Origin: Mesorhizobium sp. Root102
Lineage (GTDB): Bacteria; Pseudomonadota; Alphaproteobacteria; Rhizobiales; Rhizobiaceae
Assembly: GCF_001425625.1 (NCBI RefSeq)
Contig: NZ_LMCP01000045.1
Coordinates: 317,263-381,262 of the forward strand
Length of the DNA: 64,000 nt
Reading direction: 5' to 3'
Shown: piece after piece, positions 4,284 through 64,000 of the stretch
Position numbering within the stretch: the stretch's first letter is position 1
Layout: the number at the start of each line of letters is the position of its first letter
The notes under the pieces: model-generated
The model's database searches: none
The model's input: the letters and a program-made list of their open reading frames with translations, nothing else
Told to the model about the DNA's origin: nothing
Program-made: the position numbers and the translations under genes

Positions 4284-4470
4284 GCGGTTGGACATTTTTG
4301 GGCCTTTCGGCCTGGTAGAGCCGTGCGTCTCATGTTGGCCGGGTGAATTTCCGGTCGGGGCGCACTATATGGAACTTACGCTGCCGCGAGCGCTTCTTTG
4401 GCGTTCATTTCGGCGGTGCCATAGTTTGAAAACTGTCGGGCCTTGACCCCGGCGTGGATGGAGAACGCTG

Positions 4471-5988
<1,518 letters not shown>

Positions 5989-5994
5989 GTGACC

Positions 5995-6282
5995 ATGGCG
6001 ACGCAGCTGCCGAGAGAGGACATCTGGTTTGCCGTCCGCTGGCGGCGGCTGCGGGCTGTCCGCCGCGAGGGCAAGATCGCCATGACCAAATTTGCCGCCG
6101 CGACAATTATCTCGGCATTTGCCGGCTTCCTGCTCATTGCCTTCGTCAATGTGTTCCTCGGCATCGCCGTCTTCTCGGCCAGTTTTGGCCTGTCCCTATC
6201 GTGGTTCATGGCCCTGCAGCGCCGGCACACCGACTACTCCATCACTTACGACGATTATTTCAGAGAAAAGAACAATGCTTGA
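5995..6282 (+). CDS. Small membrane protein inside the SUF operon, function unknown
   Basis: The 95-residue protein has a basic N-terminus, then about 42 hydrophobic residues (roughly 33-75) long enough for two transmembrane helices, and a polar tail ending in a Tyr/Asp-rich stretch. I recognise no domain. It starts six bases after the sufB stop and overlaps the sufC start by 8 nt, so translational coupling is likely. A GTG at 5989 is an alternative start. It is not one of the classical Suf proteins; a membrane tether or accessory role for the Suf complex is only speculation. Confidence 0.75.
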   Translation: MATQLPREDIWFAVRWRRLRAVRREGKIAMTKFAAATIISAFAGFLLIAFVNVFLGIAVFSASFGLSLSWFMALQRRHTDYSITYDDYFREKNNA

Positions 6283-7030
6283 AATCAGAAACCTGCACGC
6301 CCGCATCGTCGATGACGGCACCGAAATCATCCGCGGCTTGAACCTGACGGTGAAAGCCGGCGAGGTCGCCGCGATCATGGGGCCTAACGGCTCGGGCAAA
6401 TCGACGCTGTCCTACATCCTCGCCGGCCGCGAGGACTATGAGGTGACCGAGGGCGACATCCTCTACAACGGCCAGTCGATCCTCGAAATGGATCCGGCTG
6501 AGCGCGCAACGTCAGGCATCTTCCTTGCCTTCCAGTATCCGATGGAGATACCCGGCGTCGCCACCATGGAATTCCTGAAGGTGGCGATGAACGAGCAGCG
6601 CAAGGCGCGTGGCGAAGAGCCGCTGAAGATCCCGGAATTCCTCAAGCGGGTGAAGGAAGCAGCCGCCTCGCTCAGCATGGACATGGCGATGCTGAAGCGG
6701 CCGCTCAATGTCGGCTTCTCCGGCGGCGAGAAGAAGCGCGCCGAGATCCTGCAGATGAAGCTGCTTGAGCCCAAACTCTGCGTGCTCGACGAAACCGATT
6801 CCGGCCTCGACATCGATGCGCTGAAGATCGTCTCGGACGGCGTCAACGCGCTGCGCGCGCCGGACCGGTCGTTCCTGGTCATCACCCACTACCAGCGCCT
6901 GCTCGAACACATCGTGCCCGACACCGTGCACGTGCTCTACAAGGGCCAGGTCATCAAGTCGGGCGACAAGTCGCTGGCGCTTGACCTGGAAGCCAATGGC
7001 TATGCCGGCGTGATCGGCGAAGCCGCGTGA
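6275..7030 (+). CDS. sufC: Fe-S cluster assembly ATPase SufC
   Basis: This 251-residue soluble ABC ATPase has Walker A GPNGSGKST (36-44), the SufC-type signature FSGGEKKR (148-155), and Walker B ending in VLDETDSGLD (Asp172, Glu173). SufC powers the SufBC2D scaffold and has no membrane partner of the transporter kind. The start is the ATG beginning MLEIRNLHA, which overlaps the preceding small membrane gene. Reading further upstream in frame gives only antisense-like sequence. sufD follows after 25 nt, or 1 nt if an earlier sufD ATG is used. Confidence 0.97.
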   Translation: MLEIRNLHARIVDDGTEIIRGLNLTVKAGEVAAIMGPNGSGKSTLSYILAGREDYEVTEGDILYNGQSILEMDPAERATSGIFLAFQYPMEIPGVATMEFLKVAMNEQRKARGEEPLKIPEFLKRVKEAAASLSMDMAMLKRPLNVGFSGGEKKRAEILQMKLLEPKLCVLDETDSGLDIDALKIVSDGVNALRAPDRSFLVITHYQRLLEHIVPDTVHVLYKGQVIKSGDKSLALDLEANGYAGVIGEAA

Positions 7031-7055
7031 GATGCCAGAAGGCAAGGCGAAACTG

Positions 7056-8324
7056 ATGAATATGCACTTACAGCCCCAGAGAACCTCCGCCGAGACGGCG
7101 CTGATCGACGCCTTTGGCGAACGGCTGTCGCTGCTGCCCGGCGACGGCGCGGTGATGCTGAAGCGCGACGACGCAATCGAAACGATCAAGCATGGCCTGC
7201 CGACGCGGCGCGTCGAATCCTGGCATTACACCGACCTGCGCCGGCTCTTGAATGCGGTGCCGGACTTCGACTCGGCCGCCATGGCCAAAGCCATTGCACC
7301 GATCGTCGACGGTTCCACTGTGGTGTCGATCCTGAACGGCAAGTCCGACGCGAAGGTGCCAGTCCTTGAAGGCGTCACTTTCCAGCGCCTGTCGGAAAAG
7401 CTGACCGACGGCAGCATCGCACCGGGGCTCGATTCCTACGGCAGCGACGACGCCATCGGCGCGCTGAACACGGCGTTCGTGGCCGACGGTTATTTCGTCG
7501 ATATCGCCGATGGTGCGGAACTGGAAAAGCCGATCGAACTGCAGAACCTGCAGGCCGGTGGCCAGACCCATGTGCGCTTGGCCGTTCGTGTCGGCGCTGG
7601 CGCCAAGGCCGTTATCGTCGAGCGCCAGACGGGTGATGGGCCTGCTCTGGTCAGCTCGGTCAGCCAGCTCGTGCTGGGCGAGGGCGCCGAGGTGACGTGG
7701 CTGATCGTCCAGGAACAGCCGGAGACGGCAACGCATCTGGCTCAGTTCAAGGCGCATCTCGGCAAGAATTCGAAGCTGACGGTGTTCTTCATGAATGCCG
7801 GCGGCAAGCTTGTGCGCCAGGAAATCGTGGTCAGGACGACAGGCGAAGGCGCCGATTTCAAACTGCGCGGCATCAACCTTCTGGCCGGCGACACCCATAC
7901 CGATGTGACCATGGTGCTCGACCATGCCGTGCCGCACACGACCTCGACGGAGGTCATCCGCAACGTGGTGACGGGCAAGGCGCGCGGCGTCTTCCAGGGC
8001 CGCATCAACGTCCATCAATATGCGCAGAAGACCAACGCCAAGATGGCCTGCAACACGCTGCTGCTGTCGGATGACGGCGAGTTCTCGACCAAGCCGGAGC
8101 TTGAGATCTTCGCCGACGACGTCGTCTGCGGCCATGGCGCGACGGTCACCGAAATCGACCACGACCATCTGTTCTACCTGATGGCGCGCGGCGTCGACGA
8201 GAAGACCGCGCGGGGCCTACTCGTGAAGGCCTTCGTTGCCGAGGTGATCGAGGAACTGGACGACGAGTCGATCGTCGAGGCGCTGGAAGCGCGGCTCGAC
8301 GACTGGTTCGTGACACACGGGTGA
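7056..8324 (+). CDS. sufD: Fe-S cluster assembly protein SufD
   Basis: The protein (about 422 residues) has the SufD core, including RRVESWHYTDLRRLL near the N-terminus, a beta-helix region, and the conserved C-terminal GHGATVTEIDHDHLFYLMARG segment. SufD pairs with SufB in the SufBC2D complex and is needed for iron delivery to the scaffold. Three ATGs (7032, 7056 and 7062) are possible starts. I prefer 7056 for its purine-rich AAGGCGA leader, but 7032 would lie directly after the sufC stop. A strong stem-loop separates the gene from sufS. Confidence 0.95.
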   Translation: MNMHLQPQRTSAETALIDAFGERLSLLPGDGAVMLKRDDAIETIKHGLPTRRVESWHYTDLRRLLNAVPDFDSAAMAKAIAPIVDGSTVVSILNGKSDAKVPVLEGVTFQRLSEKLTDGSIAPGLDSYGSDDAIGALNTAFVADGYFVDIADGAELEKPIELQNLQAGGQTHVRLAVRVGAGAKAVIVERQTGDGPALVSSVSQLVLGEGAEVTWLIVQEQPETATHLAQFKAHLGKNSKLTVFFMNAGGKLVRQEIVVRTTGEGADFKLRGINLLAGDTHTDVTMVLDHAVPHTTSTEVIRNVVTGKARGVFQGRINVHQYAQKTNAKMACNTLLLSDDGEFSTKPELEIFADDVVCGHGATVTEIDHDHLFYLMARGVDEKTARGLLVKAFVAEVIEELDDESIVEALEARLDDWFVTHG

Positions 8325-8344
8325 GGAGGGGTCGGCGTAGCCGG

Positions 8345-8370
8345 CAAAAAGCCAACGATTTGGCTTTTTG
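8345..8370. other. Stem-loop between sufD and sufS
   Basis: An 11-bp perfect inverted repeat, CAAAAAGCCAA / TTGGCTTTTTG, closes a four-base loop. It sits in the only sizeable gap (115 nt) between sufD and sufS. The T-rich right arm resembles an intrinsic terminator. It could instead attenuate transcription or act as an RNA processing and stability site that sets different levels of SufBCD and SufS. Only the structure is visible; function is inferred. Confidence 0.55.
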
Positions 8371-8439
8371 AGCGACGAACGCCCGGAACCATAGCGAAGG
8401 GCCGGATGACGGTGAAGCCCGGGTATTGAAAGACAGACG

Positions 8440-9681
8440 ATGGACCAGAAACTCGAAAACATCCCGTACGACGTCGAAGCGATCCGCCGCGATTTCCCGA
8501 TCCTGTCGCGGGAAGTCTACGGAAAACCGCTTGTCTATCTCGACAATGGCGCCTCGGCACAGAAACCGCAGGTGGTGCTGGATACGATCCAGCACGCCTA
8601 TTCCCAGGAATACGCCAACGTCCATCGCGGCCTGCATTTCCTCTCCAATGCCGCGACCGATGCCTATGAAAAGGCGCGTGAGACGGTGCGCCGTTTTCTC
8701 AATGCGCCAAGCACCGACAACATCGTCTTCACGTCGAACACGACCTCGGCCATCAACACGGTCGCCTATGGCTATGGCATGCCCAACATCGGCGAGGGCG
8801 ACGAGATCGTGCTGTCGATCATGGAGCACCACTCCAACATCGTGCCGTGGCATTTCATCCGCGAGCGGCAGGGCGCCAAGCTGGTCTGGGTGCCGGTCGA
8901 CGATCTCGGTGTCTTCCACATCGAGGAATTCGAGAAGCGGCTGACCAGCAAGACAAAGCTCGTTGCCATCACACAGATGTCGAACGCGCTTGGCACGGTG
9001 ACGCCGATCAAGGAAATCGTGCGCATCGCGCATGCGAAAAACATTCCGGTGCTGGTCGACGGCAGCCAGAGCGCCGTGCATATGCCGATCGACGTGCAGG
9101 ATCTCGACTGCGACTTCTTCGTCTTCACCGGCCACAAGGTCTACGGCCCCTCGGGCATCGGGGTGCTCTACGGCAAGAAGGACATTCTGTCGGGCATGCG
9201 CCCCTTCATGGGCGGTGGCGAGATGATCGAGGAGGTGACGGAAGACATCGTCACCTACAACGAGCCGCCGCACCGCTTCGAGGCCGGTACGCCGCCGATC
9301 GTGCAGGCGATCGGGCTCGGTGCTGCGCTCGACTATATGGAATCGGTCGGCCGCGAGCGCATCGCCGCGCATGAAGAAGACCTCAAGACATACGCGCATG
9401 AGCGGCTGCGCGCCATCAATTCGCTGCGCATCTTCGGCGATGCGCCCGGCAAAGGCGCCATCATCTCGTTCGAGCTGCAAGGAATTCATGCGCACGACGT
9501 GTCGATGGTGATAGACAGGCAAGGCGTTGCAGTGCGTGCGGGCACCCATTGCGCCCAGCCGCTGTTGAAACGCTTCGGCGTAACCTCCACATGCAGGGCG
9601 TCGTTCGGCATGTATAATACCAGGGCCGAAGTCGATGCTTTGGCCGAGGCGCTTGAAAAAGCGCGCAAGTTCTTCGGGTGA
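8440..9681 (+). CDS. sufS: Cysteine desulfurase SufS
   Basis: The 413-residue enzyme is a group II cysteine desulfurase/selenocysteine lyase. The PLP lysine is in TGHKVYGPSG (Lys233) and the catalytic cysteine in RAGTHCAQP (Cys371) lies on the short loop typical of SufS. It supplies persulfide sulfur to SufB, usually with SufE or SufU as acceptor; no sufE is present in this window. It is followed closely by sufT and sufA. Confidence 0.95.
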   Translation: MDQKLENIPYDVEAIRRDFPILSREVYGKPLVYLDNGASAQKPQVVLDTIQHAYSQEYANVHRGLHFLSNAATDAYEKARETVRRFLNAPSTDNIVFTSNTTSAINTVAYGYGMPNIGEGDEIVLSIMEHHSNIVPWHFIRERQGAKLVWVPVDDLGVFHIEEFEKRLTSKTKLVAITQMSNALGTVTPIKEIVRIAHAKNIPVLVDGSQSAVHMPIDVQDLDCDFFVFTGHKVYGPSGIGVLYGKKDILSGMRPFMGGGEMIEEVTEDIVTYNEPPHRFEAGTPPIVQAIGLGAALDYMESVGRERIAAHEEDLKTYAHERLRAINSLRIFGDAPGKGAIISFELQGIHAHDVSMVIDRQGVAVRAGTHCAQPLLKRFGVTSTCRASFGMYNTRAEVDALAEALEKARKFFG

Positions 9682-9702
9682 AGATTTTTTTGGGTGACGA
9701 CC

Positions 9703-10095
9703 ATGGATGATGCAAGCATCGCTGCCGAGACCACTCAGGAAACCGCGCCCAATGCGCTGGTTTCGGGATCGGCCATTCCAGCTGATGAACTGGCACGACT
9801 GACCGACGACATCGTCTCGGCCCTGAAGACCGTCTACGATCCGGAAATCCCGGCCGATATCTACGAGCTTGGCCTGATCTACAAGATCGACATCGAGGAC
9901 AATCGCTCGGTTAAGATCGACATGACGCTGACCGCCCCCGGCTGCCCGGTCGCCGGCGAAATGCCCGGCTGGGTGGAAAATGCCGTCGGCGCCGTCGAAG
10001 GCGTTTCCGGCGTCGAAGTGAACATGACCTTCGACCCGCCCTGGTCGCCCGACCGCATGTCGGAAGAGGCGCAGGTCGCGGTGGGCTGGTACTAG
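9703..10095 (+). CDS. sufT: SufT-type protein (DUF59/MIP18 family)
   Basis: The 130-residue protein carries the DUF59/MIP18 domain: VYDPEIPADIYELGLIY around residues 43-59, LTAPGCPVAGEMP with the conserved cysteine, and FDPPWSPDRMSEEA near the end. This family helps Fe-S cluster maturation or transfer to target proteins. It lies 21 nt after sufS in the same direction. I chose ATG at 9703; a GTG nine bases earlier is in frame. The first 35 residues are variable. Confidence 0.9.
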   Translation: MDDASIAAETTQETAPNALVSGSAIPADELARLTDDIVSALKTVYDPEIPADIYELGLIYKIDIEDNRSVKIDMTLTAPGCPVAGEMPGWVENAVGAVEGVSGVEVNMTFDPPWSPDRMSEEAQVAVGWY

Positions 10096-10204
10096 CGTTG
10101 GGCCCGACAGGGTTGGCACACTTGCGCCAGTCATAAAACTTCACCATTTTAGGTGAGGAATCATTCGGCAGGCCTTGAACCTGCATGGAATGGAAGGAAA
10201 AAGA

Positions 10205-10585
10205 ATGGGACGCTTCGCCGTCATCACGATGACCGAAAAGGCCGCTGACCGGGTGCGCGAGATTGTCGCCACTCGCGACAACGCGCATGGCATTCGGCTC
10301 GGCATCAAGAAGGGCGGCTGCGCCGGCATGGAATACACGGTCGATCTGGTGACCGAGCCCAACACCAAGGACGACCATATCGAGCGCGATGGCGCGCATG
10401 TCTATATCGCGCCGGAAGCGGCCCTTTTCCTGTTCGGCACCGAGATGGATTTCGAACAGACGACGCTGCGCACCGGCTTCACCTTCCACAATCCGAACCA
10501 GAGTTCGGCCTGTGGATGCGGCGAATCCGTCGAACTGAAGCCGGCCGATCTCAAGGCGCTGGCGGAAGCACGCGCCTCGGCCTGA
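10205..10585 (+). CDS. sufA: A-type Fe-S carrier protein SufA/IscA
   Basis: The 126-residue protein belongs to the HesB/IscA/SufA family. It has the first conserved cysteine in KKGGCAGMEY and the C-terminal pair in SSACGCGES. A-type carriers accept Fe-S clusters from the SufBC2D scaffold and pass them to apo-enzymes. I chose the ATG beginning MGRFAVITM, preceded by GGAAGGAAA. The 109-nt gap to sufT leaves room for a separate promoter, but the gene still reads as the last of the SUF operon. A palindromic terminator follows. Confidence 0.93.
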   Translation: MGRFAVITMTEKAADRVREIVATRDNAHGIRLGIKKGGCAGMEYTVDLVTEPNTKDDHIERDGAHVYIAPEAALFLFGTEMDFEQTTLRTGFTFHNPNQSSACGCGESVELKPADLKALAEARASA

Positions 10586-10590
10586 TCTTC

Positions 10591-10612
10591 CTTCGCCCGT
10601 CGACGGGCGAAG
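10591..10612. terminator. Palindromic terminator between convergent sufA and GFA genes
   Basis: A perfect inverted repeat, CTTCGCCCG-TCGA-CGGGCGAAG, fills the 31-nt gap between two convergent genes. No long T-run follows on either strand, so it is a hairpin of terminator type rather than a textbook intrinsic terminator. Confidence 0.5.
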
Positions 10613-10616
10613 AAGG

Positions 10617-11114
10617 CTACTCCACCCACATGCCCGTCCGCTTGTGCCAGTCGGCGATCGATTCCTCGGGATAGATGTCGAACGCGTTGTCTCTTTTGCC
10701 GATATCGGGTTCGACCCAGTTCGCCTTGTATTTCAGCATCAGGTGCACCTTGCTTGGCGGAATGGGGAGGTCGCTGTCGATCGCCGACGCGAAAGGATGC
10801 ACGAGCTCCGGCCAGGTCGGGTCGTAGAGCCAAAGGGCTGATCCACATTTCTTGCAGAAATTGCGCTCCCCGGTCGAGATCTCGCACTGCGGATGTTCGT
10901 CATCCTCGATCTTGGCCCGGTAGACGCCAAGGCTCCTTTTGCCTCTGATGTTCAACGTCTCACTGTCGGCGCCGAGATTGATGGCAAAACCGCCGCCGCC
11001 CTGTTGTTTGCGGCAGATCGAGCAATAGCACAGCATGAATGGCGCCGGCGTGTGGCTCTCCACCTCGAAACGCACGGCATTGCAGCGGCAGGACCCTTTG
11101 AGCAGAAGCGGCAT
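10617..11114 (-). CDS. GFA-family zinc-binding protein
   Basis: The 165-residue protein has the GFA (glutathione-dependent formaldehyde-activating enzyme-like) cysteine pattern: GSCRCNAV, then CYCSICRKQQGG, and FCKKCGSALW. These cysteines bind structural and catalytic zinc in family members. The founding enzyme was proposed to promote addition of formaldehyde to glutathione, but most homologues have no assigned substrate. It is convergent with sufA and divergent from a TfoX-domain gene. Confidence 0.85.
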   Translation of the reverse strand: MPLLLKGSCRCNAVRFEVESHTPAPFMLCYCSICRKQQGGGGFAINLGADSETLNIRGKRSLGVYRAKIEDDEHPQCEISTGERNFCKKCGSALWLYDPTWPELVHPFASAIDSDLPIPPSKVHLMLKYKANWVEPDIGKRDNAFDIYPEESIADWHKRTGMWVE

Positions 11115-11204
11115 GACAAAAACTCCGATAGATGGCTCTCAACCTGTCAGCATGATTTTGGTTGCGGCGATGACAAGGCCAAATGCCGGTGGCATGATCG
11201 CGGC

Positions 11205-11528
11205 ATGGACAATGAACGCATCGCCGAACTGTTAGAAGGCCTTGGTCCGGTCAGCATCCGAAAACTGTTCGGCGGCAAGGGCATCTATTTCGACGGCGTC
11301 ATCGTTGCCATCGTGCTACGCGGTGAATTGATGCTGAAGGCCGACGAGCAAAGCGCGCCCGACTTCGAAGCCGCCGGTTGCCGGCAGTGGACCTATACCG
11401 GCTCGCGTCACGGCAAGCTGGTCTCCATGCCCTACTGGAGCATTCCCGACAGCGCTTTCGATGACCCCGACGAGATGACTGTCTGGGCGCGCCGGGCCTA
11501 TGAGGCGGGGCGGCGCGCGGGGAAGTGA
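11205..11528 (+). CDS. TfoX N-terminal domain protein
   Basis: The 107-residue protein is a stand-alone TfoX_N domain, recognised by the LGPVSIRKLFGGKGIYFDGVIVA start and the central LMLKAD strand. In Gammaproteobacteria the full-length TfoX/Sxy protein induces competence genes. Single-domain versions are widespread in rhizobia and have no established role. The ATG at 11205 (MDNERIAELL) is the sensible start; the upstream open frame lies over the GFA gene. It ends shortly before the convergent psuG gene. Confidence 0.8.
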   Translation: MDNERIAELLEGLGPVSIRKLFGGKGIYFDGVIVAIVLRGELMLKADEQSAPDFEAAGCRQWTYTGSRHGKLVSMPYWSIPDSAFDDPDEMTVWARRAYEAGRRAGK

Positions 11529-11584
11529 CGGGCAATTCGGAACGGTCGAGGGACAGCACCCCCGCCGACCTTGGCGGCAGCACC

Positions 11585-12502
11585 CTACAGCGCCTTCGCG
11601 ATCCTCGCCGCCAGCCGCGCATTGTTTTCGACCAGCGCGATGTTGGTCTTAAGGCTCCTGCCACCGGACAGTTCGAGGATTTTCGACAGCAGGAAGGGCG
11701 TCACCGCCTTGCCGGTCACGTTGAGCGCCTCGGCGGCCTTCTGCGCGGCTTCGATATAGGAGGCCATCTCTTCAGCGGGAATTTCGTGGTTCTCAGGCAC
11801 CGGATTGGCGATCAGCATGCCGCCGGCGAGCCCCAGCGCTGCCCTCGTCTGGTAGAAATGCGCGATCTCTTCCGGTCCGTGCAAGGTCAGCGGCGCGCGG
11901 AACGGCGAATGCCGCGACCAGAAGGCCGGCATCGTCTCGCAGCCATGGCCGATCACCGGCACGCCGCGCGTCTCCAGCACCTCCAGCGTCTTTTCGATGT
12001 CGAGGATAGCCTTGGCGCCGGCCGACACGACGATGACCGGCGTGCGCGCCAACTCGTCGAGATCGGCGGAAATATCAAAGCTCTTTTCCGCACCCTTGTG
12101 CACGCCTCCAATGCCGCCGGTGGCGAACACTTTTATGCCGACCATATGCGCCGCGATCATCGTGGCGGCGACCGTGGTGCCGCCGGTGCGCCCTTGCGCT
12201 ACCGCAAAACCGAGGTCGGCGCGCGACAGCTTCATGGCGTCGCCCGTCATCGCCAGCGATTCGCGCTCGCCGTCCGAAAGTCCGATCTTGATGCGGCCGC
12301 CGACGACAGCGATCGTCGCCGGCACGGCGCCGCCATCGGTGATGATCTTTTCGACATCGGCCGCCATGGCGCCATTGTCGGGGTAGGGCATGCCATGGGT
12401 GATGATGGTGCTTTCCAGCGCCACCACCGGCCGCCCAGTGGCCAGGGCTTGCGCCACCGGCGCGTGGATGTCGATGAAGGGGCGGGCGGTCTCTGGGGTC
12501 AT
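11585..12502 (-). CDS. psuG: Pseudouridine-5'-phosphate glycosidase
   Basis: The 305-residue protein matches PsuG (YeiN/indigoidine synthase A family), with VALESTIITHGMPYP, GRTGGTTVAATM, FATGGIGGVH and VSAGAKAILD all conserved. PsuG cleaves the C-C glycosidic bond of pseudouridine 5'-phosphate to uracil and ribose 5-phosphate. I chose the internal ATG (MTPETARPF); the ORF extends 17 residues upstream without family similarity. It lies 75 nt downstream of the kinase gene on the same strand, so the two-step pathway is probably one transcript. Confidence 0.92.
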   Translation of the reverse strand: MTPETARPFIDIHAPVAQALATGRPVVALESTIITHGMPYPDNGAMAADVEKIITDGGAVPATIAVVGGRIKIGLSDGERESLAMTGDAMKLSRADLGFAVAQGRTGGTTVAATMIAAHMVGIKVFATGGIGGVHKGAEKSFDISADLDELARTPVIVVSAGAKAILDIEKTLEVLETRGVPVIGHGCETMPAFWSRHSPFRAPLTLHGPEEIAHFYQTRAALGLAGGMLIANPVPENHEIPAEEMASYIEAAQKAAEALNVTGKAVTPFLLSKILELSGGRSLKTNIALVENNARLAARIAKAL

Positions 12503-12577
12503 CTCGGTCTCCAATCCGGAGTGCGGCGCGTCCATCGGGACCCTTGGCAACACTGCGGCACTAAGAATTTGCCGGTC

Positions 12578-13522
12578 TCATGCCACTTCCTGCGCTTCCG
12601 GCACAAGAGCCAGCGCGTCCGCGAAGCTTGCCTTGGTGAATTCGGGAACGGCGTTGGAGCTTTCGATGGCAAGCGTCGCCGCGGCAATGCCTTCGCGCAG
12701 GGCCACCCGCAACGGCAGGCCGCGCAGCAAGGCGGCGACCGTTGCGCCCGCCAGCGCATCGCCGGCGCCGGTGACGTCAGCGACCTTTCTTGGCGGCGGC
12801 GGCAGGATCGAGAAGGCGCCGGCCTCATCGAAGCCCAGCATGGGGCCGCCGCCCGCCGTCACCACGCCGCTCTTGAGCCCCGCGCGTCTCAGCCCGTCGA
12901 CGATGTCTTGCGGGGAAGTCGTGGCGTCCAGGGCTGCCAGTGCGACCGCTTCGCGCCGGTTCATGAAGACGACGGCCAGATTGCCGAGCACCGGCTTCAA
13001 GCGCACGATCTTGGCCGGCGAAACGGCAATGGCGAAGACGGGTTTTCCGGCGGCAAGCTGAATCAGCCGTTCCAGTGCCGCCGTCGGCAGGTTGGCGTCG
13101 CAGAAGACGGCATCGGCGGCAGCGATCACCTCCCGGACTTTGGAGCGCCTGATCTGCTTGGGAAAGGTCAGGTCATAGAGCGCCATGTCGGCAAAGCCGA
13201 CGATCAGCTCCCCCTCGCGGTCGATCAGCGCCGTATAGCTCGGCGTGGGGCGGTCAAGGAACACGGCCGACAGGTCCGCAATGCCTGCCTCGGCGATGGC
13301 TCGCGAAACAGTGTCGGCAGCGGCATCGCCGCCACGCACCGACATGAGCGACGCTGAGACGCCGCGGAGCACGGCACTGCGCAGCGCGTTGAAGACGCCG
13401 CCACCGACATCCTCGCGCATCGTGCCGGGATTGGAGGCGCCAGGCACGTAAGCGCCGGACACCTTGCCGCGCCGGTCGATATGGGCGCCGCCTATAGCCA
13501 GTATTTTCGCGGATTTCAGCAT
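12578..13522 (-). CDS. psuK: Pseudouridine kinase (PfkB family)
   Basis: This 314-residue PfkB-type sugar kinase starts MLKSAKILAIGGAHIDRRG and has the C-terminal signature DVTGAGDALAGA, whose aspartate is the catalytic base. Position next to psuG makes pseudouridine kinase the likely activity: pseudouridine plus ATP gives the 5'-phosphate. The PfkB family alone would not fix the substrate. No nucleoside transporter is visible beside the pair, unlike in some bacteria. The gene is divergent from recA, with about 280 nt between them. Confidence 0.85.
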   Translation of the reverse strand: MLKSAKILAIGGAHIDRRGKVSGAYVPGASNPGTMREDVGGGVFNALRSAVLRGVSASLMSVRGGDAAADTVSRAIAEAGIADLSAVFLDRPTPSYTALIDREGELIVGFADMALYDLTFPKQIRRSKVREVIAAADAVFCDANLPTAALERLIQLAAGKPVFAIAVSPAKIVRLKPVLGNLAVVFMNRREAVALAALDATTSPQDIVDGLRRAGLKSGVVTAGGGPMLGFDEAGAFSILPPPPRKVADVTGAGDALAGATVAALLRGLPLRVALREGIAAATLAIESSNAVPEFTKASFADALALVPEAQEVA

Positions 13523-13719
13523 GCCGGCGATATGACCTTTGTTATTCCAGCCGCACAAGCGCTAGGCTGCTTGGCGAAGCTTCGCATGCAAGGCAGCGAT
13601 TCGGCAGATCGAAACATCCGAGCCGTCTGGCCCAATGCGGGATGCATCGTGGAGCGAGATCGTGAGACAAAAAAAGAACAAATCCGGATAGTGATTGTTT
13701 TTCAGATATTTGATCCCTC

Positions 13720-13748
13720 TTGCCAAACGAGAACAAAAAAGGTACAAA
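13720..13748 (+). promoter_or_regulatory. recA promoter with overlapping LexA (SOS) box
   Basis: TTGCCA, a 17-nt spacer and TACAAA form a good sigma-70-type promoter 56 nt before the recA ATG. Inside the spacer and overlapping the -10 lies GAAC-N7-GTAC (13731-13745), one base from the alphaproteobacterial LexA consensus GAAC-N7-GAAC. LexA bound here would block RNA polymerase until DNA damage activates RecA. A weaker copy, AGAC-N7-GAAC, lies at 13665-13679. The positions are read directly; regulation is inferred. Confidence 0.7.
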
Positions 13749-13803
13749 TTGGCAGGGATTACGGATTGTCCGGCCTTCATTGACGACCAAGGGGTGATGT
13801 ATC

Positions 13804-14901
<1,098 letters not shown>

Positions 14902-57995: not shown

Positions 57996-59264
57996 ATGGT
58001 GGATTTTCCGATCGAGGCAGTGCGTGGAAGGTTTCCCGCTCTCTCCCTGACCGACAAGGGCCGCCGCCGCGTCTATCTCGACAATCCGGCCGGCACGCAG
58101 GTGCCGCAAGCTGTCGCGGACGCCGTGTCGCGCTGCCTCTTGACCACCAACGCCAACCTTGGCGGCTATTTCGAAACGACGATTGCCGCGCAAGCTGTCG
58201 TCGACCAGGCGCATCAAGCAATGGCGGATTTCCTTGGCGCCGCAAGCCCCGAGGAAATCATCATCGGCGCCAACATGACGACGCTGACCTATCACATGTC
58301 GCGCACGCTCGGCCGCACGATGCAGCCCGGCGACGAGATCATCCTCACCCGCATGGACCATGAGGGCAACGTATCGCCCTGGCTGCAGCTTGCCGAGGAC
58401 CTAGGCCTTGTCGTGCGCTGGCTGCCGTTCGACGAAAAGAGCTGGCAGGTTGAAGAAGCAACGCTGGCTGGTCTGCTTTCGCAGAAGACACGGCTGGTCG
58501 CGTTGAACTATGCCAGCAACCTGACCGGCTCGATCAACCGGGTGAAGGCGCTGACCGCCATCGCCAGGAACGCCGGCGCGCTTGTCTATGTCGATGCCGT
58601 GCAATTCGCGCCACACGGCCTGATCGACGTGCAGGAGCTCGGCTGCGATTTCCTGATCTGCTCGGCCTACAAATTCTTCGGCCCGCATATGGGCATATTG
58701 TGGGGCCGGCGTGATGTCATCGACGACCTGAAACCCTACAAATGCCGCTGCTCGTCGAACGGTTTGCCGGAGCGGTTCGAACTCGGCACACCGCAGATCG
58801 AGCTGATGGCCGGTCTCACCGCCGCGGTCGACTACTTTGCCGACCTTGGTGCGGCGGCGGGCGGGGACGGTTCAAGAACGCAGAAGATTGCCAAGGCGTT
58901 TGCGGTTTCGGTTGCGTATGAAAACCCGCTGGCGCAACAGCTGATCGACGGCCTCTCCGACATTTCAGGTCTGACGATCCACGGCATCACCGATCCGAAG
59001 CGACTTGGCGAGCGCGTTCCGACGGTTTCCTTCACCGTCGATGGCATCGTGCCCGAAACGATCGTGCGGCAGATGAATGCCGAAAATATCTTCCTGTGGT
59101 CCGGCCATAACTACGCCTGGGAGATCGTCCACCAGTTGGGCATTCCGGCCGAGCATGGCGTCGTGCGCATCGGCATTGCCCACTACAACACTACAGCCGA
59201 AATCGACGAGACGCTGGAGAGCGTGCATCGGGTCATTGCCATGCTCAGGCAGCAGCGATCCTGA
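57996..59264 (+). CDS. Cysteine-desulfurase-like PLP enzyme lacking the catalytic cysteine
   Basis: The 422-residue protein is a class V aminotransferase-fold enzyme of the cysteine-desulfurase-like group (TIGR01976 type): RVYLDNPAGTQVPQAV at the start and the PLP lysine in CSAYKFFGPHMG (Lys226). At the place where SufS has RAGTHC, it has FLWSGHNYAWEIV, with no cysteine, so it is unlikely to be a desulfurase. It may be a lyase or a related PLP enzyme acting on an amino acid. It faces the amide/amine catabolic operon. Confidence 0.87.
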   Translation: MVDFPIEAVRGRFPALSLTDKGRRRVYLDNPAGTQVPQAVADAVSRCLLTTNANLGGYFETTIAAQAVVDQAHQAMADFLGAASPEEIIIGANMTTLTYHMSRTLGRTMQPGDEIILTRMDHEGNVSPWLQLAEDLGLVVRWLPFDEKSWQVEEATLAGLLSQKTRLVALNYASNLTGSINRVKALTAIARNAGALVYVDAVQFAPHGLIDVQELGCDFLICSAYKFFGPHMGILWGRRDVIDDLKPYKCRCSSNGLPERFELGTPQIELMAGLTAAVDYFADLGAAAGGDGSRTQKIAKAFAVSVAYENPLAQQLIDGLSDISGLTIHGITDPKRLGERVPTVSFTVDGIVPETIVRQMNAENIFLWSGHNYAWEIVHQLGIPAEHGVVRIGIAHYNTTAEIDETLESVHRVIAMLRQQRS

Positions 59265-59279
59265 CGATCGCTTCGATCT

Positions 59280-60308
59280 TCATCGCGCCTTGCCGCCGAA
59301 ACCGGTGAGGAACGCGGTGAGATTGTCGCTGAGTTCGTCGCAGAGGTAGCCGCCCTCCTGGACGATGACCGTCGGCAGGCCGAGCTTTGCGATGGCCTCG
59401 CCGATGCGCGAGAACCCCGGCGTCGTCACTGAAAGTCCGCCGAACGGATCGCCCTCGAACGCGTCGAGGCCAAGCGCCACGACCAGCGCATCCGGCGAAA
59501 AGGCACGGATGCGCTGGAACGCCACCGCGAGCGCTTCGAGAAACGCCGCGTCGGCGGATTTGCGCGGCAGCGGCAGGTTGAAATTGTAGCCGAGGCCAGG
59601 CCCTTCGCCGCGCTCGTCGGCATGGCCCCAGAAGAACGGATAGAAACGCACCGGATCGGCATGCAGCGAGACGGTCAGCACATCCGGCCGTGCATAGAAG
59701 ATGCCTTGCGTGCCGTTGCCGTGATGCAGGTCGACATCGAGGATCGCCACGCGCGACGCCGTCCTCCGCAAGACCTGCGCGGCGACGGCGGAGTTGTTGA
59801 TGAAACAAAAGCCGCCGGCGACATCGGCAAAGGCATGGTGGCCGGGCGGACGGCACAGCGCGTAGGCGGCCGGTGCGCCTGATATCACAGCCTCGGCCGC
59901 ATCGACCGCGCTCCAGGCGCTCCACAGCGCGCTCTGCCAAGTCTCGCCCGAGATCGGGCAAGCCGTATCGGCCATGTGATAGCCGGCCTGGCCGACCGCC
60001 GAGGCCGGATAGGAGCCGTTGCGCGCAATCGGATGGATGTTGGGAATCACCTCAGCCGACGCGCCGTCGATGCGCTGCCAGCGCGTGTAGATATGCTCGA
60101 GGAAGTCGAGATATTCCGGCGTGTGCACCGCCGAGACAGGACCGAGCCCATGATTGCGCGGCCGCTCGATCGTGAAACCCGCGGATAATGCGCCAGCTAA
60201 CAATCTCTCGACGCGCTCCGGCTTTTCCGGATTGGGCTGCGCCGCACCGCTCGAAAGAAAGGCCTTGGGGTCGTGGCGCTTCTGTTCCTCGGCATAGAAG
60301 GCTTTCAT
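59280..60308 (-). CDS. Acetylpolyamine amidohydrolase-like (histone deacetylase family) enzyme
   Basis: The 342-residue zinc hydrolase has the deacetylase core: His157-His158 in CRPPGHHAF, zinc ligands Asp193 and His195 in DVDLHHGNG and Asp282 in GLDAFEGDP, and Tyr321 in EGGYL. The FFWGHADERGEG loop and overall length match acetylpolyamine amidohydrolases, which remove acetyl groups from polyamines or other primary amines. It is the last gene of a five-gene operon and overlaps the acetyltransferase gene by 4 nt. Confidence 0.92.
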   Translation of the reverse strand: MKAFYAEEQKRHDPKAFLSSGAAQPNPEKPERVERLLAGALSAGFTIERPRNHGLGPVSAVHTPEYLDFLEHIYTRWQRIDGASAEVIPNIHPIARNGSYPASAVGQAGYHMADTACPISGETWQSALWSAWSAVDAAEAVISGAPAAYALCRPPGHHAFADVAGGFCFINNSAVAAQVLRRTASRVAILDVDLHHGNGTQGIFYARPDVLTVSLHADPVRFYPFFWGHADERGEGPGLGYNFNLPLPRKSADAAFLEALAVAFQRIRAFSPDALVVALGLDAFEGDPFGGLSVTTPGFSRIGEAIAKLGLPTVIVQEGGYLCDELSDNLTAFLTGFGGKAR

Positions 60309-60823
60309 TCCTGATCCCCATTTTCGGCCGCGTCGGCGAAGGCAAAGAAGGCCTCGCCGATGATCTTCTGTGTCTGCTCATAGCTTGACCAGGCGATTCC
60401 CAGCCTTTCGTAGAAGGCCTTGGCGCCTTCATTGTCGGTGTCGACGGACAGTCGGAGATAGACGCCGCCTTCTTTCCGGCACTGCGCCGCAACGTGCCGC
60501 AGCAGCCGTTCGCCGATCTTGCGGCCGCGAAACCGATCTTCGACATAGAGGTCCTGCACATAGACGCCAGGCCGCCCCATCCAGGTCGAAAACATCGGGA
60601 AATGCAGGCAAAGGCCGGCGAATTCGCCGTCCACTTCCGCGATCAGTGTGGAGAAAGCGGGTTTTTCGCCAAAGCCGTAAGTTCTAAGATCCTCCGGTGT
60701 CGAGATGATTTCCTCGGGCGCACCAATATGGGTGCCGAGTTTCAGGATCGCGGCGTGGATGCTTTCGACGTCTTCCACTCGACCGGGGCGTATGAGAACG
60801 TCATTGGATGTTAGATTGATCAC
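60305..60823 (-). CDS. GNAT acetyltransferase, SSAT-like
   Basis: The 172-residue GNAT protein has the segment FSTWMGRPGVYVQDLYVEDRFRGRKIGERLL, which resembles spermidine/spermine N-acetyltransferase (SSAT) and contains the acetyl-CoA loop RGRKIGERL. RLSVDTDNEGAKAFYERLG follows. It probably acetylates an amine. The opposite activity, deacetylation, is encoded by the overlapping next gene, so both could act on the same amine pool. The SSAT likeness is by motif only. Confidence 0.8.
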   Translation of the reverse strand: MINLTSNDVLIRPGRVEDVESIHAAILKLGTHIGAPEEIISTPEDLRTYGFGEKPAFSTLIAEVDGEFAGLCLHFPMFSTWMGRPGVYVQDLYVEDRFRGRKIGERLLRHVAAQCRKEGGVYLRLSVDTDNEGAKAFYERLGIAWSSYEQTQKIIGEAFFAFADAAENGDQE

Positions 60824-60832
60824 TGTCGTCTT

Positions 60833-61762
60833 TCAAAACGCCACCCGGTCGCCGCCCTTGAGTGCCAGCATGTCGCGCGCTTCGGTGGGCGTGGCAACCT
60901 CCAGCGACAGCCCATCGAGAATGCCACGGATGCGACGCACCTGATCGGCGTTGGATTTCGCCAGCTGGCGGCCGTCATAAAGACTGTCCTCCATCCCGAC
61001 ACGGACATTGCCGCCCATCGCCGCCGCGATGGAAATCAGCGGCATCTGCTGGCGGCCGGCAGCCAGCACCGAGAACTGGTAGCTGTCACCGAACAATTTG
61101 TCGGCGATCCGCTTCATGTGGACGAGATTGTCCGGATCGGCGCCGATGCCGCCCAATATGCCCAGAACGAACTGGATGAACAGCGGTCCCGACACCAGAC
61201 CCCGGTCGCGGAAATGCGCCAGCGAATAGAGATGGCCGACATCGTAGCATTCGAATTCGAAGCGCGTGCCGCAGCCCATGCCCAGCCTCTCAAGCACGCC
61301 TTCCATATCGGCGAAGGTGTTCTTGAAGATGGTGTCGCGGGTGGCTTCCAGCAGCTTTGGTTCCCATTCGTGCTGCCATTCCCGTGGCTTGTCGAGCATC
61401 GGGAACAGCGCGAAATTCATCGAACCCATGTTGAGCGAGCACATTTCGGGTTCGGCCCGCAGCGGCGCAGCCAGCCGCTGGTCCAGCGTCATCAGCGACG
61501 AGCCGCCGGTGGTGATGTTGATCACCGCATCGGTCGCCTGCTTGATGCGTGGCAGGAACTGCATGTAGACGTCCGGATCGGCGGTCGGGCGGCCATCCCT
61601 GGGGTCGCGGGCGTGCAGATGCAGGATCGAGGCGCCTGCTTCCGCGGCTGCGATCGCATCGGCGGCGATCTGGTCCGGCGTCACCGGCAGATAGGGCGAC
61701 ATCGACGGCGTGTGCACCGAGCCGGTGACGGCGCAGGTGATGATGACTTTTCGCGGCGCCAT
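60833..61762 (-). CDS. BKACE-family beta-keto acid cleavage enzyme (DUF849)
   Basis: The 309-residue protein belongs to the 3-keto-5-aminohexanoate cleavage enzyme (Kce/BKACE) family: zinc ligands His48 and His50 in ILHLHARD and Glu258 in VRVGMEDSL. It condenses a beta-keto acid with acetyl-CoA, giving acetoacetate and a new CoA ester. The substrate depends on subfamily residues that I cannot rank here. In this operon it lies after a transaminase, which could make an amino-keto or keto acid. Confidence 0.92.
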   Translation of the reverse strand: MAPRKVIITCAVTGSVHTPSMSPYLPVTPDQIAADAIAAAEAGASILHLHARDPRDGRPTADPDVYMQFLPRIKQATDAVINITTGGSSLMTLDQRLAAPLRAEPEMCSLNMGSMNFALFPMLDKPREWQHEWEPKLLEATRDTIFKNTFADMEGVLERLGMGCGTRFEFECYDVGHLYSLAHFRDRGLVSGPLFIQFVLGILGGIGADPDNLVHMKRIADKLFGDSYQFSVLAAGRQQMPLISIAAAMGGNVRVGMEDSLYDGRQLAKSNADQVRRIRGILDGLSLEVATPTEARDMLALKGGDRVAF

Positions 61763-61766
61763 GCGT

Positions 61767-63146
61767 TTACCCTTCGACCGGCAGGTCGAGCTCGGAGGCC
61801 AGAACCTCCAGCGAGTCGCCGATGATGGAGACGATCTCGCCGACCTGCTCCCTGGTGACGATCATCGGCGGCGCGACCATGAAATTGTCGCCGTCGACGC
61901 CGCCCTTGACCCTGCGGCCATAGATGATCAACCCGCGCTCATAGGCGAGGTCGAGCAGCCGCTGCGTGGCTTTCTTGTTCTGGTCGATCGGCCTCAGCGT
62001 CTCGGGATCGGCGACCATCTGGGCGCCGGTGAGCAGGCCCTTGCCGCGTACGTCGGCAATGAACGGAAACCGCTTCGCCAGACCCTTCAGTCCGTCCATC
62101 AGCACATCGCCCATGGCAGCCGCATTGGCGATCAGATCGAGCCGATCCATTTCACCGAGCACCGCAAGCCCGGCGGCGCAGGCCAGCGGGTTGCCGGCGT
62201 AGGTGTGGCCATGCTGAAAACCGCCCGAGTCGAGCAGCGGCTGCACCAGCCGCATCGGGGCGGCCAGTGCGCCAAGCGGCGCATAGCCCGAGCCCAGCCC
62301 CTTGGACAGCGCGACGATGTCGGGCTTGCAGTTCCAGTGGTCGCCGCCGAGAAACTTGCCGGTGCGGCCGGCACCGCTCATCACTTCGTCGTGGATGAGC
62401 AGGATGCCGTAGCGGTCGCAGATCTCGCGGATGCGCGGATAATAGCTGTCGGGAGCGACAAGGGCTGATGTCGCAGCACCGCCAATCGGCTCCATGATGA
62501 AGGCGACCACGCTGTCCGGGCCTTCGGCCAGGATCTTCTCTTCCAGCATGTCGGCATAGCGGATACCGCGCTGTTCCATCGAGAGATTGTCGCGGTCGCG
62601 CCAGGCATTCGGCGCCGGCACGGTCGGCATCACCCGCATCATCGGCTCGAACGTTTCGGCCAGCGCATCGTCGCCAGTAATCGAGAGCGAACCCAACGTG
62701 CCGCCATGATAGGAGGGGAAGCGCGTGATCACCTTCCAGCGGCTGGCCTGGCCGGTGGCGACGGCCCATTGCCGCGCCAGCTTGATGCAGGATTCGGTCG
62801 CTTCCGAGCCGCCCGAGACGAAGAAGATACGGTCCATGCCTTCCGGCAGTTTGCCGGCGAGTTCCCGCGCCAGCTCCTCCGCCGGCTCGTTCTCGAAATG
62901 CAGCCGATAGGCGAAGGTGGCGCGGTCCATCTGCCGCTTCATGGCATCCAGCACATTGCGGTTGGAATGGCCGATATTGGCGACCATCGGGCCGCTAGAG
63001 CCGTCGATGAAGCGGCGGCCGTCCTGCGTCCACATGTAGATGCCTTCGGCGCGGTCGATCAGCGGCCGGCGCAGGCTGGACAGATAGAACAGATGCGATT
63101 GGCGCCGGGCGTCAGTGTCTTGCGTGGCGGATTGGACTTTCGACAT
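61767..63146 (-). CDS. Class III (omega) aminotransferase
   Basis: The 459-residue PLP enzyme has the class III signature LLIHDEVMSGAGRTG (Asp253) and the PLP lysine in VALSKGLGSGY (Lys282). Members move amino groups from beta- or omega-amines (for example beta-alanine, putrescine, GABA) to pyruvate or 2-oxoglutarate. I chose the MSKVQSATQ start, 1 nt after the upstream stop. It is tightly linked to the BKACE gene (4 nt). Confidence 0.92.
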   Translation of the reverse strand: MSKVQSATQDTDARRQSHLFYLSSLRRPLIDRAEGIYMWTQDGRRFIDGSSGPMVANIGHSNRNVLDAMKRQMDRATFAYRLHFENEPAEELARELAGKLPEGMDRIFFVSGGSEATESCIKLARQWAVATGQASRWKVITRFPSYHGGTLGSLSITGDDALAETFEPMMRVMPTVPAPNAWRDRDNLSMEQRGIRYADMLEEKILAEGPDSVVAFIMEPIGGAATSALVAPDSYYPRIREICDRYGILLIHDEVMSGAGRTGKFLGGDHWNCKPDIVALSKGLGSGYAPLGALAAPMRLVQPLLDSGGFQHGHTYAGNPLACAAGLAVLGEMDRLDLIANAAAMGDVLMDGLKGLAKRFPFIADVRGKGLLTGAQMVADPETLRPIDQNKKATQRLLDLAYERGLIIYGRRVKGGVDGDNFMVAPPMIVTREQVGEIVSIIGDSLEVLASELDLPVEG

Positions 63147-63147
63147 G

Positions 63148-64000
63148 TCAGGACTTTCCGAGGTAACGATCGAGAACATTGCGGGTAACGCGTTCGACCA
63201 TCGGGTCTTTTCTTAGCAGGCCGGCCACCCATTCACAGCTTCCGGCGTGGAACACCTCGCCCTTGCCGCGCGGGAAATTGACGATCATGCCATTGCCGCG
63301 TTTGACTTTTTCCAGGTTGGCGTCGGTCGCCTCGCCGAACAGCGTTTCTGCGTTGAAGCGGCCATCCTCGTCGGTGAGGAACTGATCCTCGATCGGGATA
63401 TCGGCGCTTTCCTCGACCTGGCTCGCCATGCCGACGGCGAGAACCTGCAGGCCATCAGGCGCGCCGCTGGTCGCTGCGGGGTAGGGCAGGCCGCCGCGTA
63501 TCTCGAACTCGAGCCCGTCGACCTCATAGCCATAGACATGGCTGTCGGCGCCCAGCAGGTCGCCGTAGTAGATGCCAGTGCCGGCGAAGGCCCAGTGCTC
63601 GGGCCGGTAAACCGGGAAGCCACGCGCGCCGCGCGGCGCGCAGCCGCCCCAACCGGCATAGAGGCCGCGGGTCGCATTGAGCCCGAAGGTCGCCGATCCC
63701 GGCCGGCCGATTTCCGGCGCTTCCCAGGAATTGGTGGCGCGGGTGACGTCGCTGCCCGGGAGATAGGCCGGGTCTTCGGCACGCGAACGATATTTGTAGC
63801 AAACCTGCCGGCGGCCCTCGTCTTCCAGCCGCGTCTGCCACATGAAATTGCCGGCAAAGCGCGCCGCATGGCCGCCGCGCTCGACATAGGCGTCGACGGC
63901 ATCGCGCATCTCCCAGGTCCAATATTCGTCATGGCCGACGAAGACGGCACAGTCATAGCCGTCGAGTATGTCCGGCGAAAAATGCAGATCATGCTGGCTG
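63148..64000 (-). CDS. N,N-dimethylformamidase large-subunit-like protein (5' end outside window)
   Basis: The frame runs off the right edge; about 283 C-terminal residues are visible. GHDEYWTWEMRDAV, then GGHAARFAGNFMWQTR, and the end VFHAGSCEWVAGL are typical of the C-terminal domain of N,N-dimethylformamidase beta subunits and related proteins. DMFase hydrolyses small amides, but most homologues are uncharacterised. It is the first visible gene of the operon, ending 1 nt before the aminotransferase gene. Confidence 0.8.
   Translation of the reverse strand, partial: SQHDLHFSPDILDGYDCAVFVGHDEYWTWEMRDAVDAYVERGGHAARFAGNFMWQTRLEDEGRRQVCYKYRSRAEDPAYLPGSDVTRATNSWEAPEIGRPGSATFGLNATRGLYAGWGGCAPRGARGFPVYRPEHWAFAGTGIYYGDLLGADSHVYGYEVDGLEFEIRGGLPYPAATSGAPDGLQVLAVGMASQVEESADIPIEDQFLTDEDGRFNAETLFGEATDANLEKVKRGNGMIVNFPRGKGEVFHAGSCEWVAGLLRKDPMVERVTRNVLDRYLGKS

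Follow-up and report, generated by a model that had tools for sequence, protein, structure and literature searches.

Gene content of the locus

The 64,000-nucleotide stretch of Mesorhizobium sp. Root102 analyzed here (the window) spans positions 317263-381262 of contig C45 (NZ_LMCP01000045.1) in a genome assembly of 6.76 Mb and 48 contigs (G000). Its last part, 59280-64000, carries five minus-strand genes encoding an N,N-dimethylformamidase (DMFase)-like protein, a class III aminotransferase, a beta-keto acid cleavage enzyme (BKACE), a GNAT-family N-acetyltransferase, and a deacetylase of the HDAC superfamily. An initial annotation, made from the window alone, described them as a five-gene operon for the catabolism of an amide or polyamine derivative. 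Open reading frame coordinates bear out the five genes, their strand, and their tight packing (gaps of 1, 4, and 9 nucleotides (nt) and one 4-nt overlap), but the unit is larger than proposed. Reading past 64 kb, as the initial annotation had advised, in a contig stretch that includes ~13 kb beyond the window (L009; position p of L009 equals window position p + 58737), reveals an ABC importer and a LysR regulator. The unit is a nine-gene minus-strand operon, with four importer genes and five enzyme genes, and has a divergent LysR gene past 64 kb.

The operon begins with a solute-binding protein of the SBP_bac_3 amino-acid type (L009:8181-8963), two ABC permeases (L009:6824-7483 and 7496-8200), and an ABC ATPase (L009:6063-6827), all on the minus strand and preceding the DMFase-like gene. 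The 3' part of the latter occupies 63148-64000 and continues to what would be position 64797; the complete gene (L009:4411-6060) encodes 549 residues. The class III aminotransferase follows (61767-63146, with an alternative open start at 63179), then the BKACE (60833-61762), the GNAT (60305-60823), and, as the last operon gene, the HDAC-type deacetylase (59280-60308). From the DMFase-like gene toward the transporter side, the junctions are a 2-nt gap, a 4-nt overlap, a 12-nt gap, and a 20-nt overlap, and the divergent LysR gene (L009:9091-10059) lies 127 nt from the operon.

Proteins were assigned to families with Pfam and NCBIfam models, the DMFase-like protein being scored at full length. 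Pfam supports each of the five identities first proposed: the HDAC type (PF00850, 252 bits), the GNAT (PF00583, 61 bits), the BKACE (full-length domain PF05853, 354 bits against a cut-off of 24.8), the class III aminotransferase (PF00202, 303 bits), and the DMFase-like protein (DMFA2_C, PF20254, 228 bits). The importer is of the amino-acid type, and its binding protein scores best, below cut-off, with the NCBIfam cystine and lysine/arginine/ornithine models. A single-sequence search for solved relatives of the DMFase-like protein found nothing, and a profile of 14 orthologs gave the N-acetyl-(R)-beta-phenylalanine acylase 8I5A/8HUY as the best PDB match (61 bits, E = 6.9e-16), then DMFase 6LVB (58.7 bits). 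The domain and a His-x-Glu-Tyr motif are common to the acylase, DMFase, and the DMFase-like protein, although the relationship is remote (~60 bits) and the solved chains have 772 to 776 residues. The His519-Pro-Glu521-Tyr522 segment of 6LVB stands opposite a His-Asp-Glu-Tyr segment, so that H289 corresponds to H519 and E291 to E521, the metal-binding His-x-Glu of DMFase. H289, E291, and Y292 are conserved without exception across 18 sequences drawn from several gene contexts. DMFase has a separate small-subunit gene beside the large one; here the DMFase-like gene is separated from its neighbors by 2 and 1 nt, too little for such a gene. An AlphaFold model of the ortholog at locus L126 was unusable (mean predicted local distance difference test score, pLDDT, of 46).

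Placement of the BKACE and the aminotransferase in subfamilies had been suggested in the initial annotation. The BKACE exceeds the cut-off of NF053538, the model for 3,5-dioxohexanoate:acetyl-CoA acetone transferase (518.8 bits against 430), and falls under that of the Kce model (222.5 against 382); the best NCBIfam models of the aminotransferase, PRK07483 and PRK06917, are both under cut-off, and its best PDB match is 3I4J. Solved relatives of the BKACE are 3E49, 3E02, and BKACE15 (8RIO). BKACE15 has beta-ketohexanoate, 3,5-dioxohexanoate, 5-hydroxy-beta-ketohexanoate, and beta-ketopentanoate as confirmed substrates, all neutral C5-C6 compounds, and its physiological role is described as unknown (PMC11961710). 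Nine BKACE matches, at eight places on contigs C1, C7, C11, C23, C28, C34, and C45, occur in the source genome; seven, including that of the window, are near full length.

The nearest PDB relatives of the HDAC-type protein are acetylpolyamine amidohydrolases (3MEN, 9GKZ, 6PHR, and 3Q9B). A GNAT profile matched best a thialysine acetyltransferase (12JC), a structure with no assigned function (2FE7), and diamine acetyltransferase 2 (2BEI), with NATA1-type ornithine acetyltransferases among the lower-ranked PDB matches; the GNAT is thus a relative of thialysine, diamine, and ornithine omega-N-acetyltransferases. The catalytic residues had been described as intact. This holds for the HDAC signature (HH, DxH, D, and Y), which is readable in alignment with the solved acetylpolyamine amidohydrolases, and for K293 and D264 of the aminotransferase, presumably catalytic and both invariant. 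The acetyl-CoA loop of the GNAT, RGRKIG, departs from the usual motif (R/Q-x-x-G-x-G/A), with Lys in place of the first Gly; R99 and G104 are invariant across 11 relatives.

At the 3' side, 15 nt separate the HDAC gene from a convergent, plus-strand class V aminotransferase gene (57996-59264; Aminotran_5, 233 bits), which places the operon end inside the window. A gene annotated as class V near the Alisedimentitalea cassette described below scores better as a pyridoxal-dependent decarboxylase, so that it may differ from the gene at 57996-59264. For the LysR operator, no T-N11-A palindrome passed the filter in 14 intergenic stretches (one empty and one with a truncated gene call). Among 244 loci, L009 and the closely related L040 have an AATGAT-N12-ATCATT repeat, and L109 has two copies in which the spacer is of about the same length.

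Conservation of the operon and exchange of its modules

Two sets of loci were compared. In a family sample of 297 genomes, 56 had a DMFase-like match, with 59 places listed; 48 of the 59 were extracted together with the window's own as stretches of up to 20 kb, and the remaining 10 places were left out. Set A comprises the 41 DMFase-anchored loci L009 and L040-L079; L080-L087 (42-46% identity), which have no aminotransferase, BKACE, GNAT, or HDAC neighbor, were excluded. Set B holds the best 80 of 586 confirmed matches to an alignment of the aminotransferase in GTDB genomes. It draws on rhizobia, roseobacters, Kordiimonas, and others, the best named aminotransferase relatives being from Mesorhizobium, and its counts are not independent because many near relatives are included.

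Co-location in other genomes was one of the points on which the initial annotation had let its proposal depend, and homologs of the operon genes are neighbors in many genomes of both sets. The 41 loci of set A include an aminotransferase in 35, HDAC in 35, GNAT in 36, BKACE in 22, and an amino-acid importer in 14. Among the best 80 matches of set B, BKACE is found at 45 loci, HDAC at 49, GNAT at 51, a DMFase-like gene at 33, CoA-transferase at 19, and ArgE/DapE at 20. Related cassettes are present in soil and marine Alphaproteobacteria, also on plasmids. With the same genes adjacent in dozens of species, far beyond chance, this is a real, conserved catabolic operon.

The DMFase-like gene is accompanied by a GNAT at 33 of 33 set B loci and 36 of 41 set A loci, a co-occurrence expected if the freed compound needs capping. 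The five set A loci lacking a GNAT are L040, which is cut by a contig end, L045, L077, and L078, which lack the other partners too, and L068. A 62-residue DMFase-like piece in L159, a locus with no GNAT, fell under the threshold (75.5 bits) and is uncounted in set B. Some cassettes devoid of a DMFase-like gene instead hold a member of the creatininase family (six loci that form a cluster) or, in other cases, an M20 amidohydrolase.

The cleavage and deacylase genes occur mostly in two combinations. BKACE and CoA-transferase are found together at none of the 80 set B loci. The 45 BKACE loci carry HDAC in 40 cases, ArgE in one, and neither in four, with GNAT at 39, whereas all 19 CoA-transferase loci carry ArgE/DapE and none HDAC, with thiolase at 11 and GNAT at one. 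The window-type importer accompanies both combinations. The exchange is clearest on two roseobacter plasmids. A Parasedimentitalea plasmid encodes the importer, aminotransferase, BKACE, HDAC, an amidohydrolase, and alanine racemase, with a LysR gene inside the cassette; an Alisedimentitalea plasmid encodes the importer, aminotransferase, CoA-transferase A/B, ArgE/DapE, thiolase, amidohydrolase, and alanine racemase, with LysR alongside. No GNAT is annotated in either plasmid cassette. When mapped on a quick aminotransferase tree, the label for the cleavage module changes three times or more and that for the deacylase four times; L181 and L183 (BKACE/HDAC/GNAT) fall, on starred branches, within a CoA-transferase clade, and a rhizobial BKACE clade contains L139 (CoA-transferase/ArgE). 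In 200 random pairings of three independent pairs, the deacylase changed in the same direction as the cleavage gene in 2.9 pairs on average and in the opposite direction in none. Sinorhizobium medicae has a DMFase-like gene of 74% identity and an importer next to LysR, CoA-transferase A/B, ArgE/DapE, thiolase, GNAT, and aminotransferase genes, and the nearest solved relatives of this aminotransferase are beta-transaminases, including beta-phenylalanine aminotransferase.

Since BKACE and CoA-transferase plus thiolase both break beta-keto acids, the product of the aminotransferase should be a beta-keto acid and its substrate a beta-amino acid. The joint switch of the deacylase would be understandable if BKACE leaves a CoA ester, which the HDAC-type enzyme must accept, and CoA-transferase passes the CoA on, giving ArgE a free acid. 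An acyl-CoA ligase plus thiolase was considered as a third replacement for BKACE and is not relied on. The ligase match occurs at four loci of a single genus (L054-L057), with a thiolase at three of them, and the ligase of L054 scores as a malonyl-CoA synthase (753.6 bits, cut-off 558) and lies ~300 nt off.

Related genes are also found in other arrangements. On two Rhizobium plasmids (L107 and L108, ~4100-14000), an aminotransferase and a gene of the carboxymuconolactone decarboxylase family lie upstream of an amino-acid importer, a DMFase-like gene, an M24 peptidase, and an Lrp regulator, and a hydrolase of the M20 family comes further on. In Kordiimonas and uncultured relatives (L163, L180, and L189), the GNAT and BKACE genes are divergent from those for the aminotransferase and HDAC; next to them lies a protein of ~840 residues that, in the one locus scanned, matches beta-propeller (PD40) models. 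A TRAP-type importer downstream of aminotransferase and HDAC replaces the ABC importer in L151 and L153 (DctP in both, DctQ in the one scanned). L251, a Roseomonas marmotae plasmid, may carry a distant version of the pathway: an aminotransferase (52%), an ABC binding protein, a DMFase-like gene of greater length (726 residues; DMFA2_C, 328 bits), a metal-dependent hydrolase, and a GNAT stand in a row there. A nearby radical SAM gene has a SPASM match and was not detected by lysine 2,3-aminomutase (KamA) queries. A Phaeobacter inhibens plasmid (L247) carries two class III aminotransferases, a thiolase-domain protein, and an AMP-binding protein, adjoining pca genes and a BKACE.

Proposed pathway and competing explanations

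Most likely, the operon encodes a beta-amino acid pathway with acetyl protection, for which beta-lysine is the leading candidate. In its general form, in which an amino-acid-like compound is taken up and a beta-amino acid bearing a second, terminal amine is broken down, we hold this scheme to be probable. From the observed gene content, conservation, module swaps, and family assignments, we infer all of the reactions, their order, and the substrate. The ABC transporter would bring the compound in, and the DMFase-like enzyme would hydrolyze an amide bond to give a free beta-diamino acid. The GNAT would then acetylate the terminal amine, so that, as we propose, the later keto acid would be unable to cyclize. 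The aminotransferase, with the beta-amine as its proposed target, would produce a beta-keto group, and BKACE would use acetyl-CoA to split this beta-keto acid, yielding acetoacetate together with an acetamidoacyl-CoA shortened by two carbons (for beta-lysine as the substrate, 4-acetamidobutyryl-CoA). Finally, the HDAC-type enzyme would strip off the acetyl group, giving a product of the gamma-aminobutyric acid (GABA) type.

The initial annotation had already placed amide hydrolysis, transamination, and acetyl-CoA-dependent beta-keto acid cleavage in one line, and these steps can indeed line up in a catabolic operon; its suggestion that acetylation guards an intermediate is probably correct. 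The pairing of a terminal-amine acetyltransferase with a small-molecule deacetylase suggests a second amine to which the cap is added ahead of keto acid formation and from which it is removed once cleavage is done, and a capped amine fits the neutral beta-keto acids on which the nearest BKACE model and the relative of known substrates act. Beta-lysine fits best because the steps equal those reported for a Pseudomonas (see below), and we tentatively favor it, or an amide containing it, as the best single candidate, with somewhat less than even confidence. Beta-lysine occurs in streptothricins. N-epsilon-acetyl-beta-lysine is an osmolyte of methanogens (PMC1224877).

Several observations weigh against this proposal. 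The co-switch of cleavage and deacylase genes comprises three pairs only, for which significance is out of reach (sign test, median p of 0.25), and the acylase match of the DMFase-like protein (61 bits) scarcely exceeds its DMFase match (~59 bits). Gene sets are incomplete at many loci. In set A, 12 of 41 lack both BKACE and CoA-transferase although the aminotransferase, GNAT, HDAC, and DMFase-like genes are all present, and in 16 BKACE-less genomes the best BKACE homolog elsewhere is 57-68% identical, against 95% and 86% for two in-operon controls. L048, L060, and L071 have HDAC and GNAT but lack the aminotransferase, and L046 and L049 lack HDAC. In set B, a DMFase-like gene above threshold is missing from 47 of 80 loci and GNAT from 29, among them 18 of the 19 CoA-transferase loci and six of the 45 BKACE loci. 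When 15 GNAT-less genomes were searched (10 with CoA-transferase, four with BKACE/HDAC, and one with neither), a strong GNAT match elsewhere was found in three (L155, L161, and L179); such lineages may import the acetylated form, use another GNAT, or act on a different substrate. DMFase-like homologs also stand in other contexts, for example beside a CoA transferase (Dinoroseobacter and Shinella) or the M24 peptidase of the two Rhizobium plasmids. Moreover, the DMFase-like gene, importer, and M20 gene of S. medicae are closest to the L107 context (69-87%), so that cluster may be two neighboring units. Lastly, no KamA-like gene was detected at E 1e-6 in 153 loci or in the eight plasmid loci L245-L252, with queries that do find KamA-family loci, which leaves a lysine-to-beta-lysine step beside the operon genes unsupported; internal synthesis of beta-lysine by KamA was therefore rejected. 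The window aminotransferase had no match at E 1e-60 in 24 chosen genomes with KamA hits, a search that had no positive control and shows little.

We considered whether the substrate could instead be a beta-amino acid that lacks a second amine, for example of the N-acylated beta-phenylalanine type, with GNAT and HDAC as accessory functions in detoxification or timing. In favor of this, the DMFase-like protein has its best solved match in N-acetyl-(R)-beta-phenylalanine acylase, the S. medicae aminotransferase lies near beta-transaminases including beta-phenylalanine aminotransferase, and GNAT is missing from 18 of 19 CoA-transferase loci. Benzoylacetate is accepted by one BKACE group (PMC4922564), and the genetic context of BKACE15 is said to suggest aromatic degradation (PMC11961710). 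However, a small-molecule deacylase is retained whether it comes from the HDAC or the ArgE family, the GNAT relatives, to judge by their names, act on basic amino acids and diamines, and GNAT accompanies the DMFase-like gene wherever the latter is above threshold in set B (33 loci) and at 36 of the 41 set A loci. We therefore regard a substrate of this kind as unlikely.

The catabolism of acetylpolyamines or acyl-diamines, close to the polyamine derivative of the initial annotation, would proceed by deacetylation and then transamination to an aminoaldehyde. It could draw on the acetylpolyamine amidohydrolases nearest to the HDAC-type protein, on the kinship of the GNAT to diamine acetyltransferases, and on a PotD/PotA-like ABC importer in some relatives. 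However, that PotD-like match is weak (34.9 bits against a cut-off of 582), the window importer is of the amino-acid and not the polyamine type, and neither BKACE, which is replaced by 3-oxoacid CoA-transferase at 19 loci (with thiolase at 11), nor CoA-transferase plus thiolase has a role in polyamine chemistry. A polyamine pathway was rejected as first choice on the importer type and the beta-keto-acid modules, and we now judge it quite unlikely.

Use of an osmolyte such as ectoine or N-acetyl-diaminobutyrate would resemble the operon in its outline, since ectoine degradation (eut/doe) likewise combines import, amide-type hydrolysis, deacetylation, and class III transamination. The transporter subunits are near the ectoine EhuA/EhuC models, under cut-off, and where the DMFase-like gene adjoins an M24 peptidase on two Rhizobium plasmids, the one scanned is nearest to the ectoine hydrolase DoeA, again under cut-off. 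Nevertheless, ectoine degradation uses other enzymes and is not known to need beta-keto acid cleavage, and no DoeA/EutD-type (M24 ectoine hydrolase) gene was found among the ten operon and regulator proteins scanned, making this explanation improbable. Control of enzyme activity through protein acetylation, as by AcuA/AcuC of Bacillus, is highly improbable: both GNAT and HDAC families can have protein substrates, but the operon HDAC is of the small-molecule acetylpolyamine type and is replaced at all 19 CoA-transferase loci by ArgE/DapE, a family of small-molecule deacylases.

Relation to known pathways

The closest precedent for the acetyl-protected beta-amino acid pathway is biochemical. Work from Barker's group, by Bozler et al. 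in 1979 and Ohsugi et al. in 1981, reportedly described L-beta-lysine degradation in a Pseudomonas. In that route, beta-lysine is said to be N6-acetylated, transaminated to 3-keto-6-acetamidohexanoate, converted to 4-acetamidobutyryl-CoA, and processed to 4-aminobutyrate by a deacetylase-thiolesterase. The order of steps in this pathway is the one we propose for the operon, and its terminal-amine acetyltransferase has a putative counterpart there at the level of the GNAT family profile; it differs in being known from enzymology only, in another organism, and in having no amide hydrolase step. To our knowledge, no genes have been assigned to it, and EC 2.6.1.65 and 3.5.1.51 are orphan numbers. 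In the open-access literature, the scope of our survey, we found no paper on the operon gene set or on genes for the acetylated beta-lysine route. Within that scope, the earlier statement that no described pathway has this set stands for the genes, but the biochemical steps match those reported for the Pseudomonas pathway.

The kamA-yod region of Bacillus subtilis, which holds a GNAT, an ArgE/DapE-type deacylase, CoA-transferase A/B, and a class III aminotransferase together, is similar in gene content. It has CoA-transferase and ArgE where the window operon has BKACE and HDAC, and among the ten genes of the operon and regulator there is no CoA-transferase A/B. In addition, KamA makes beta-lysine inside the cell, whereas the window operon has an importer instead and no KamA was found. 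The window aminotransferase and YodT, for which the structure is also listed (PMC6522883), share 3I4J as their closest solved structure. The Kce branch of lysine fermentation and other BKACE pathways share with the operon a step in which a beta-keto acid is cleaved with acetyl-CoA, giving acetoacetate plus an acyl-CoA, although the model scores given above set the window BKACE apart from Kce.

Taken together, we put forward, as a possibility that we rate below even odds and hold more loosely than the choice of beta-lysine itself, that the operon and related loci constitute the genes for a pathway of the beta-lysine type. To it they would add a DMFase-family amide hydrolase that frees the beta-diamino acid and an HDAC-family acetamidoacyl-CoA deacetylase, the deacylase switching with the cleavage module according to whether a CoA ester or a free acid is presented. 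If this is true, it would provide genes for a beta-amino acid pathway whose enzymes were reportedly described decades ago in the absence of sequences, and roles for four families that are annotated only in general terms (DMFase-like, BKACE, GNAT, and HDAC-like). With two unrelated enzyme modules interchangeable in one cassette, the intermediate, a beta-keto acid, would be readable from the swaps ahead of experiment.

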